Positions 5,765 through 7,276 of a stretch of 54,902 bases of DNA are shown one piece after another (position 1 is the first letter of the stretch; each line of letters opens with the position of its first letter). The notes under the pieces are model-generated. The model did no database searches. It saw only the letters and a list, made by a program, of their open reading frames with translations, and had not been told where the DNA came from. Both the position numbers and the translations under genes were made by a program. The DNA is from Ralstonia sp. TCR112 (GTDB taxonomy: Bacteria > Pseudomonadota > Gammaproteobacteria > Burkholderiales > Burkholderiaceae): the NCBI RefSeq assembly GCF_007997035.1, contig NZ_VOSS01000002.1, forward strand, positions 1-54,902, read 5' to 3'.

Positions 5765-5981
5765 TCAAACATCAATATTCCGCGCCACCAACGCATTGCT
5801 CTCAATGAAGTTCCGGCGCGGTTCCACGTCGTCGCCCATCAGGGTGGTGAAAATCTGGTCCGCGGCAATGGCGTCTTCAATCTGCACGCGCAGCAGGCGG
5901 CGCTGGGTGACGTCCATGGTGGTTTCCCACAGCTGCTCGGGGTTCATTTCGCCCAGGCCCTTGTAGCGCTGGCGGCTTACG
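5765..5981 (-). repeat. Left direct repeat: detached copy of the gyrB 3' end
   Basis: These 217 bp duplicate 7060-7276 (offset 1295) with two mismatches seen by eye, one in GGCGCGGTTCC versus GGCGTGGTTCC and one in CAGGGTGG versus CAGCGTGG. It encodes the last 72 or so residues of GyrB, from VSRQRYKGLGEMNPE to ARNIDV and stop, with the same protein sequence as the right copy. Similarity ends abruptly at 5981, exactly at the conserved RQRYKGLGEM region. The copy lacks the rest of gyrB and is a remnant, not a gene. Confidence 0.95.
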
Positions 5982-6147
5982 TGGCGCCCCGGGCTCGCGT
6001 GCGGCTGGTGCAGTAAGCAGATTTGTCGGCGAAGCAGCGGAAAAGGCACCTGTAAAGTAAATTTGCTTGTCAAGCGGCAAGCCGTTACTTATACTCGCGC
6101 CCAAGTGGACTGGGAGTTCCCGGTCGGCGTCTAAGCCTCGGTGAGTT

Positions 6148-7041
6148 TCATCGGGGCTTTTCGCTTTCTAGGGGCGGAAACATCTTCAGCCCCCAATCCT
6201 CAAAGCCTTCCCCTAGCTTCTCCCGGCCGCCGCTGCAGAAGAACTTGCGCTTTAGGACCTCGAAGGCCCGGTTTTCTTGCTCCGGTCGCAACACATGCAT
6301 GCCAACCGGGCGTGCCACGAGATCAGCAAGCTGCAACCCCGGTGAGTCCACCTTCTTGTCGGCAAATACGATGTCGAAGGGCAACGTGATACCGAGTCGG
6401 TTTGCTCCATCGCAGATGCGCCGGAATTCCAGCTCCAGCTCGTTGTCTTCCTTCTTGCCGCGACACTCGACAATCACGTGTGTCAGCGCGCCGTCCTGAT
6501 TCTTTTCCTGCAGAAGTTCGTACAAGGTCTCCAAGCAGAAACCGAGCGCTAGGTGATAAGGGTTGCCGTCTGTCTTACCTTGGTCGCGCAGCTTCTTCTT
6601 GTCGATGACGCAGCTGATCAAGATAAAGTTGCTGATCTCGATGATGTCGGTCAGCTCTGACAAGAACTGTTGCTTGTGCTGCCGATTAGCGAACTTGAAC
6701 GCCCCTTTTTCCTTGCGGATTTCATGCTCGTGCAAGACCACTAGGTCGTGACCGAAGTGGTTGAACTTCAGCTTGTGCAGCGCCGGAACAACTTTTTCGC
6801 TGTAATGCCGTTTATAGAAGACGCAAAACGCCAGCACGAAGACTGGATAGTTCGGGTCGAGCGTCTGTAAGCCGTGGTCGCCGCTTTCATCCACGTAGAC
6901 AACAAAATTACTGAACCGGCCTGGGGGCGGATTCGCGGCGCCGACGGCTTCTTCGGCTGCCGCGGACGGCTCAGCTTCGAACAGCGAGAATTGCTGTGGC
7001 TCTGGCGTTGTGTCGGCGCCCATTGACGACGCGGTTTTCAT
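6148..7041 (-). CDS. DUF3800-family protein, predicted RNase H-fold nuclease, with a clamp-binding-like motif
   Basis: The 297-residue protein carries the DUF3800 signature: YVDESGDHG (D51, E52), an acidic VECRGKKEDNELE segment, and FADKKVDSPGLQLADLVA near the C-terminus, which I know as conserved in this family. An RNase H-like fold with acidic active-site residues is generally proposed; activity is unproven. The N-terminal 40 residues look disordered and contain QFSLF (residues 17-21), which fits the bacterial beta-sliding-clamp-binding pentapeptide. The start may be this ATG at 7041 or TTG at 7050. The gene begins 9-18 bases after the gyrB stop, so it probably uses the gyrB promoter. It is the only cargo between the two gyrB tails. 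Confidence 0.85.
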   Translation of the reverse strand: MKTASSMGADTTPEPQQFSLFEAEPSAAAEEAVGAANPPPGRFSNFVVYVDESGDHGLQTLDPNYPVFVLAFCVFYKRHYSEKVVPALHKLKFNHFGHDLVVLHEHEIRKEKGAFKFANRQHKQQFLSELTDIIEISNFILISCVIDKKKLRDQGKTDGNPYHLALGFCLETLYELLQEKNQDGALTHVIVECRGKKEDNELELEFRRICDGANRLGITLPFDIVFADKKVDSPGLQLADLVARPVGMHVLRPEQENRAFEVLKRKFFCSGGREKLGEGFEDWGLKMFPPLESEKPR

Positions 7042-7043
7042 AT

Positions 7044-7062
7044 CGCTCAAAACGAGCGATCA
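7044..7062 (-). promoter_or_regulatory. Hairpin between the gyrB stop and the DUF3800 start
   Basis: On the minus strand ATCGCTC-GTTTT-GAGCGAT forms a 7-bp stem with a 5-base loop that begins at the gyrB stop codon and ends at the DUF3800 ATG. It could control translational coupling or mark an element boundary. Confidence 0.4.
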
Positions 7063-7276
7063 AACATCAATATTCCGCGCCACCAACGCATTGCTCTCAA
7101 TGAAGTTCCGGCGTGGTTCCACGTCGTCGCCCATCAGCGTGGTGAAAATCTGGTCCGCGGCAATGGCGTCTTCAATCTGCACGCGCAGCAGGCGGCGCTG
7201 GGTGACGTCCATGGTGGTTTCCCACAGCTGCTCGGGGTTCATTTCGCCCAGGCCCTTGTAGCGCTGGCGGCTTACG
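7060..7276 (-). repeat. Right direct repeat: functional copy of the gyrB 3' end
   Basis: This is the copy fused in frame to the gyrB body. It matches 5765-5981 over 217 bp, from the gyrB stop codon to the base before divergence at 7277. Confidence 0.95.

Follow-up and report, generated by a model that had tools for sequence, protein, structure and literature searches.

The window analysed here is a stretch of 54,902 nucleotides from Ralstonia sp. TCR112 (genome G000; contig NZ_VOSS01000002.1, positions 1 to 54,902), in which gyrB (7060..9587, reverse strand) is followed directly by a gene of the DUF3800 family (6148..7050, reverse strand; PF12686, E 1.2e-19) and then by a second copy of the gyrB 3' end. 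The two copies form a direct repeat of 223 bp each, 219/223 identical (98%), the right one (7060..7282, reverse strand) joined to gyrB and the left one (5765..5987, reverse strand) displaced, with an insert of 1,072 bp between them and 1,295 bp in the whole segment. An earlier sequence-only reading of this DNA gave the copies as 217 bp long and 99% identical, with identical protein; the duplication is real, but it is longer than this, two of its four differences lying on the 5' margin, at repeat positions 5-6, and two within the inner 217 bp, and both copies encode the same gyrB end (VSRQRY to stop) except for one residue at the repeat edge. The right copy was said to be in frame with gyrB, and it is continuous with the open reading frame (ORF) 7060-9189, although gyrB itself is broken once, at ~9171-9189, relative to the congeners compared, and so appears as two ORFs (7060-9189 and 9171-9587); relatives have intact copies, and the break is likely a sequencing or assembly error. 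That reading was right in seeing the native terminator beside the left copy, a strong intrinsic terminator (5671..5701, reverse strand) that is the same at the native gyrB end of the related genome G003, and in finding no recombinase, as none is encoded among the ORFs of the insert. The cargo does lie directly behind an essential gene: a scan of 5500-7400 found no sigma-70-like promoter between gyrB and DUF3800, so expression with gyrB is likely, and DUF3800 is predicted from the sequence to be expressed from the gene ahead of it, here gyrB. The cargo was taken to be a single gene; DUF3800 is present, but a second, predicted RNA gene lies on the forward strand at ~6103-6168.

Fifteen congeners were compared, 13 of which have a readable gyrB end and downstream DNA (G001 gave no full match and G007 is cut). 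Each of the 13 has one gyrB tail and none has a second. G003 represents the empty allele, with one tail, and window positions 4261-5987 align to it in one piece at 91.8%, the homology running through the terminator and on into Dam and DndB-like genes that are 88% identical to those of the window; a strain without the insert, its single tail joined to the terminator, had been anticipated from the sequence, and an empty site does exist among the relatives. G006 represents the filled allele, with DUF3800 straight behind a single gyrB tail, its homology to the insert starting 9-10 bp past the gyrB stop and ending at insert position 1015/1072. Beyond this shared unit a spacer of 57 bp (5988..6044), with no convincing match among the loci fetched, separates it from the left tail in the window, and in G006 the unit is followed by a Vsr-like ORF (recognised by eye) and then by HerA and C5-methylase ORFs. 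Judged by these alignments, an allele of the G006 type and one of the G003 type stand one behind the other in the window. As G006 has the gene behind a single tail, a duplicated tail is not required for the unit to sit there. Comparison across 15 genomes shows that each tail copy of the window carries one private or near-private change, and that both have a GTA codon found elsewhere only in G014.

The DNA downstream of gyrB is a variable site holding mostly defence-type genes. No two of the 13 congeners have like cargo after the gyrB stop, G003 alone matches the window there, and common sequence resumes ~0.8 to 10.6 kb downstream in 11 of the 13; in G004 and G015 none was seen over the ~12 kb that were fetched. 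Related genomes thus carry unlike cargo between the same core sequences (13/13 differ after the gyrB stop), as in a hotspot. Among 48 cargo ORFs of at least 150 residues, 30 from 11 congeners were scanned, and these include methylases, a type I R subunit, ResIII, Schlafen helicase, HerA, AAA, HATPase and FRG domains. No recombinase, integrase or transposase was found in the 30 ORFs scanned, 10 of which have no Pfam match. A literature search at title-listing level found no report of gyrB-downstream exchange in Ralstonia.

In a wider set of 199 relatives, one genome per species, a gyrB-tail match was found in 192, with two matches in G000, G137 and G193; the second matches of G137 and G193 lie in another full-length ORF, and a stand-alone second tail occurs in G000 only. 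The best 80 named gyrB loci and 16 fetched stretches gave a tail match in 95/96 and more than one in none. The proposal of a general mobile unit using gyrB-tail homology, with different cargo between two tails in other strains, is therefore not borne out: second tails are missing from the relatives (0/13 congeners, and stand-alone in G000 alone among the 192) and G006 is single-tailed. A protein cluster, P0125, does comprise 71-residue stand-alone gyrB tails (27 sequences on 15 contigs of up to 200 kb), with a change at a residue that does not vary among the 13 congeners, and these are possibly displaced tails in other genomes. P0125 was rejected as the same junction elsewhere: it starts at GTG, a codon normal inside gyrB in most congeners, so the start alone proves no common edge. 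P0122 was likewise rejected, as it sits on a 1.2-kb contig.

The DUF3800 protein has 5,665 homologues with an E value no higher than 1e-3, one of which (P0001, named from R. pickettii) is 98% identical to it. Taken with the best named gyrB match, at 82% from Cupriavidus in a search where records close to the window's own genome may be missing, this homologue fits a Ralstonia. No solved structure matched it by sequence, and none of the PADLOC families matches it up to E 0.01. A first structural model from 28 close homologues reached a predicted local distance difference test score (pLDDT) of 47 and its fold search was uninformative; a model with 50 diverse sequences, used instead, predicts a ribonuclease (RNase) HII-like fold. 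The DESG motif (residues 54-57) falls at the first strand, in register with the alignment to 1eke, and fits DE-x-G, which we take to be the RNase HII motif. Across the 50 sequences D54, E55, E195, E201, D202, E206 and D243 are invariant, and these acidic residues are presumably catalytic. The likeness to RNase HII, in predicted fold and in this presumed motif at the first strand, comes from a predicted structure; DUF3800 differs in its 9-16% identity, its extra N-terminal region and its partner RNA.

This RNA was recognised from a conserved stretch around and past the DUF3800 stop that is common to alpha-, beta- and gammaproteobacterial loci. When it is read on the DUF3800 strand, C-A mismatches recur in its helices, which on the opposite strand are G-U pairs, and the folding energy in the window is -34.7 kcal/mol (z -5.5) on the forward strand versus -20.4 (z -3.2) on the other. 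Three covarying helices are supported by an alignment of 31 loci, leaving out L126 (no match to the RNA) and L121 (a near copy of L120): 93.9% of the cells are paired, both partners have changed in 12 pairs, none of 500 shuffles does as well, and RNAalifold gives a nearly identical structure; a 3' element on the DUF3800 strand, with 80.8% of cells paired against 93.9% on the opposite strand, was dropped. A sigma-70-like site in the window (6067..6095, forward strand; TTGTCA, 17 nt, TATACT), the sole such site in 5500-7400, ends seven bases ahead of 6103, and a site of this kind lies at a near-fixed distance in the 31 loci, matching the consensus at a mean of 8.6/12 positions versus 6.7 in shuffled sequence and with a spacer of 17 in 22/31. 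Since the forward strand has the structure, the promoter-like site and a T-rich tract after the 3' hairpin (6133-6159), we predict a small RNA gene of ~65 nt (6103..6168, forward strand), convergent with DUF3800 and overlapping its last codons.

Searches of window positions 5500-7300 (up to E 5) and 6040-6200 (up to E 10) gave no Rfam 15 family at or above its cut-off, and no match to any of the DUF3800 families. Structured RNAs adjoining DUF3800 genes, the DUF3800 RNA motifs, were reportedly described by Weinberg in 2017, and Rfam 15 lists DUF3800-I and -IX. The RNA described here resembles them in adjoining a DUF3800 gene, but it is convergent, has its own promoter-like site and overlaps the last codons, and no Rfam 15 DUF3800 family matched it in 14 loci (E up to 0.5), in 10 viral loci (at the gathering cut-off) or, at E up to 1, in 10 loci from plasmids and viruses. 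Full-length matches to BjrC68 (RF02353), a small RNA of Bradyrhizobiaceae, do lie at the place and on the strand of the RNA in five loci (L122, L151, L152, L227, L241), though below the cut-off of 39 bits, the best at 29.5 (L241 2051-2126, reverse strand) and the others at 20.6-21.1. BjrC68 exceeds 39 bits in none of three genomes or records searched and is not listed for the window; scores of 22-26 bits occur elsewhere in two searched records, at places that our RNA model does not recognise. Matches at this level make it possible that the two RNAs are distantly related members of one wider family, and weakens the claim that ours lies wholly outside known families. The literature passages naming BjrC68 that were available gave no link to DUF3800.

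Across the clade RNA and gene go closely together. In the 199 relatives the RNA model gave matches in 79 genomes at E 0.01, of which only 20 places of at least 43 bits were counted, the scores below this (34.8 once, then a continuum from 31.4 down) being treated as noise; 13 of these 20 places lie beside DUF3800 genes, of which 14 were found, and 7 elsewhere, and most of the loci behind the 20 were in the RNA model. In 369 class genomes, where 21 of 29 genomes were counted at 47 bits or more and the next score is 31.6, the 21 strong places include all 12 DUF3800 genomes, these 12 being in the model. Independent of the model are 38 DUF3800 loci on viral contigs, found by alignment search (a single-protein scan of viral contigs gave none), all 38 of which carry the RNA on the opposite strand at the gene's end, some of them being near-identical to one another. 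Pseudomonas phage JBD68, tractable in the laboratory and with the laboratory strain PAO1 as its recorded host, has the RNA with its DUF3800 gene gp43 as well (L280 4998-5708). The genes beside ten lone RNAs encode Fic/Doc, AbiEii, PIN, DUF4411, HsdM, GmrSD and pentapeptide-repeat proteins, three having no Pfam match; the Fic/Doc, AbiEii, PIN, HsdM and GmrSD neighbours are those of RNAs with no detectable DUF3800 (L272, L275, L180, L173 and L170). In two further loci an intact RNA element stands beside a remnant of the DUF3800 core, the last ~25 residues in L264 (1552-1626) and ~25 residues from its start in L267 (1576-1650), so that both resemble deletion derivatives.

The dependence looks one-way, DUF3800 being nearly always with the RNA and the RNA sometimes alone. 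As DUF3800 is almost never without the RNA in this clade while the RNA is seen alone, we predict that the RNA either holds the nuclease in check or completes it, and the one-way dependence suggests that DUF3800 is an RNA-controlled nuclease; the pair is predicted to serve phage defence or to be a toxin-antitoxin pair, with the nuclease as toxin. Type III toxin-antitoxin systems also join a nuclease-like toxin to a small structured RNA, there as a repeat array upstream of the toxin and co-directional with it. The present pair shares the nuclease-like protein and the small structured RNA, also found alone, but its RNA is single-copy, downstream and on the opposite strand, and in this layout the pair departs from that type. 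In this clade, then, a very common family of 'unknown' function is accompanied by a compact, structured RNA that no Rfam 15 family matches at its cut-off, and the function of the DUF3800 proteins becomes directly testable through the predicted RNase HII-like fold, the RNA partner, the one-way dependence and the occurrence of gp43 in a phage with PAO1 as recorded host.

The positions taken by the pair vary. A same-strand ORF ends no more than 100 bp before DUF3800 in 13/21 chromosomal loci (ORFs called mechanically; L120 and L121 are near copies) and in 9/11 viral loci with a visible flank, the viral exceptions being L253, with an opposite-strand gene, and L257, with a 121-bp gap. HsdS precedes and HsdR follows DUF3800 in L116, L153 and L158, and HsdM precedes and HsdS follows it in L125; MmeI-type enzymes lie upstream in L157 and L160 and one ORF away in L117; an OLD-like protein is a neighbour in L154, and gyrB lies ahead of the unit in the window and G006. 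In ten viral loci the upstream gene encodes a CI/S24-type repressor in five (with a short ORF between in L229), an HTH_3 protein, HsdS and an integrase in one each, and nothing known in two; in JBD68 the gp43 pair is directly behind gp44, which occupies the repressor's place. In L121 an aminotransferase gene precedes DUF3800 and a chorismate mutase/prephenate dehydratase gene follows it, presumably serC and pheA, and here 948 bp of G061 (L121) replace 34 bp of the empty G080 (L209), the last serC codons also differing from those of the empty genome. The unit lies ahead of pheA in G094 too, but there the upstream match to serC is limited to ~280 bp. Comparison of G118 with eight relatives was uninformative as the upstream gene is not common to them.

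Flanking direct repeats were sought in 31 of 32 loci (L162 has too little flank) and are clear in three, the window (223 bp), L123 (157 bp, 84%) and L158 (17 bp); none is clear in the other 28, where L118 (22 bp, 86%) and L121 (14 bp) are borderline and were not counted. In L123 the repeat (1222-1378 and 2667-2821) is of an ORF tail and flanks DUF3800 downstream of a transfer-messenger RNA (tmRNA) gene. In L158 a 17-bp stretch from the start of hsdR also occurs at the beginning of DUF3800, so that the inserted gene seems to have taken the start region of the host gene for its own. With lengths of 223, 157 and 17 bp there is no fixed target-site duplication, and hence not the constant-length repeats of a transposon. 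A search for insert-like DNA gave, in phages, matches to the two gyrB-tail ends only and, in plasmids, DUF3800 genes.

The account that we favour, and regard as rather probable, is that a gyrB-DUF3800 allele recombined into a gyrB-Dam allele, its cargo being a unit of nuclease and RNA in which the RNA restrains or completes the nuclease, in defence or toxicity. Incoming gyrB-DUF3800 DNA would have paired homologously with gyrB at one end, while its far end would have been joined to the resident gyrB by an illegitimate junction ~220 bp short of that gene's end, leaving gyrB whole and the old tail and old cargo behind; the nuclease would then be read from the gene ahead and the RNA from its own promoter-like site. 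We infer natural transformation as the route, together with the event itself and its direction; transformation is reported for the genus (PMC9512648). The duplication is likely the scar of one-ended homologous recombination, and not a general mobile gyrB-tail unit. A defence-type hotspot anchored on an essential gene would in this way apparently stack two alleles with no recombinase involved.

Two known modes of exchange come close to this one-ended recombination. Homology-facilitated illegitimate recombination is proposed, in passages of PMC5361080, as the origin of displacement arrays, namely the effector-immunity arrays of the Vibrio cholerae type VI secretion system and Rhs orphan 3' ends. 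As far as those passages go, the window resembles them in its constant upstream anchor, in new cargo downstream, in the lack of a recombinase and in the displaced 3' sequence being kept, here the old end of the anchor gene (5765-5987) with its native terminator, as in G003; it is unlike them in being anchored on the essential gyrB, in having a bare remnant for a second tail, in carrying a nuclease-RNA pair as cargo and in showing one stacking event only. Integrase-poor hotspots that exchange at flanking core genes are treated in passages of PMC5635113, and the site resembles these in having core sequence on both sides, unlike cargo in each genome and no recombinase among the scanned ORFs, but differs in that no recombination tract was found in gyrB here, one genome per species being compared.

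Several observations weigh against the favoured account. Sliding identity versus the 13 congeners reveals no distinct recombinant tract along gyrB, and the spacer is unmatched. G033 (L126) has a DUF3800 gene, beside tmRNA, without the RNA, the sole case among the 14 in the relatives. The RNA is found without a nearby DUF3800 in 7/20 places there (L177 has a more distant DUF3800, L181 a relic and four none, G121:C11 being left out) and without DUF3800 in 9/21 in the class genomes (two fragments and six with none detectable, G335 being left out), so the RNA may not serve DUF3800 alone. The promoter-like site is weaker in the viral set, where the 33/39 loci distinct and long enough to be checked have a mean of 8.1 versus 6.7 and several score 5-6/12; promoter and terminator are throughout consensus matches only. 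None of five annotated plasmid loci has a same-strand gene ending within 100 bp of DUF3800, so a position behind a gene is no rule. A mis-join could also be at work, because assembly G000 (97.6% complete) has 292 contigs, 3.3% (3.33%) contamination and the frame break in gyrB.

The strongest alternative, which we nevertheless judge unlikely, is that the DUF3800-RNA pair is itself mobile, a free-standing homing-type unit that cuts near an empty site behind a gene, where repair copies the unit together with the neighbouring gene's end, the gyrB tail being an aberrant product of such repair. The pair does recur as a discrete guest of ~1 kb, as seen in G061 versus G080, between hsdS and hsdR or hsdM and hsdS, and behind repressors in 5/10 viral loci; host-sequence repeats of unlike length also flank it in L158 and L123, and L267 resembles an internal-deletion derivative. 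Free-standing homing with co-conversion is known in T4, and free-standing homing endonucleases are found in T-even phages, according to passages of PMC2988022; within those passages the likeness is that of a single guest gene between resident genes without a recombinase, and the difference lies in the predicted RNase HII-like fold and the partner RNA of DUF3800, a putative nuclease. Against homing stand the 28/31 loci with no clear flanking repeat and the differing repeat lengths where there is one, and the several placements for which whole-operon transfer accounts, while the cleavage activity and the target site are themselves hypothetical; nor is G094 a clean second example, because so little of its serC matches upstream.

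More speculative still, and doubtful in our view, is an extension in which the pair is an RNA-armed, RNase HII-like nuclease serving both as a phage-defence unit and as its own vehicle. It would break DNA at gene ends lacking it and be copied by host repair behind constitutive genes (repressors, restriction operons, gyrB), sometimes duplicating the gene end, with an RNA that checks the nuclease and outlives its decay.

It is about equally doubtful that the tandem is an assembly artefact in which the reads of two strains, or a repeat, were wrongly joined. The contig number, the 3.33% contamination and the broken gyrB frame favour this, as does the lack of a second genome with this junction among those retrieved. 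The two tails, however, differ at two internal sites and so are not one collapsed sequence, and a mixture of alleles does not by itself make the spacer-tail junction at 5987/5988, because in either parent allele the tail would be expected to follow gyrB. These two features of the sequence speak for a genuine tandem. A 94-residue protein spanning the spacer-tail junction is also present in the protein collection, but by its blank source it seems to be the window's own.

It is well known that an island can take the place of a gene's 3' end while the old end stays behind it, e.g. e14 in icd, and a cluster of stand-alone gyrB tails, P0125, exists elsewhere. That a site-specific island used the gyrB 3' end as its attachment site and has since lost its integrase is nonetheless very improbable: there is no integrase in the insert, the scanned window neighbours or the 30 scanned cargo ORFs of the 11 congeners, a second tail is seen in 0/13 congeners though cargo follows gyrB, and G006 holds the gene without one. 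Hardly credible at all is the placing of a gyrB-end copy between DUF3800 and Dam by duplication or gene conversion within one genome, since, although the likeness of the tails (219/223) and their common GTA codon, otherwise only in G014, mean that a single genome may be the source of both, the stretch beyond the left tail aligns, together with the terminator, to the native gyrB end of G003 as one continuous match, which a chance insertion would have to restore exactly.

The G003-type cargo that lies behind the displaced tail consists of a gene for a D12-class adenine DNA methyltransferase (Dam; 4728..5615, reverse strand) and one for a DndB-like/HEPN_Swt1 protein (2398..4752, reverse strand), and a conserved gene convergent with gyrB (1730..2113, forward strand) marks the far edge of the variable region. 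Within 339-5615 the DndB-like/HEPN_Swt1 and D12 methyltransferase genes are accompanied by one for an HNH protein (weak SRA and HNH matches, below cut-off), and these three genes, situated within the gyrB hotspot or next to it, resemble genes of restriction or defence.

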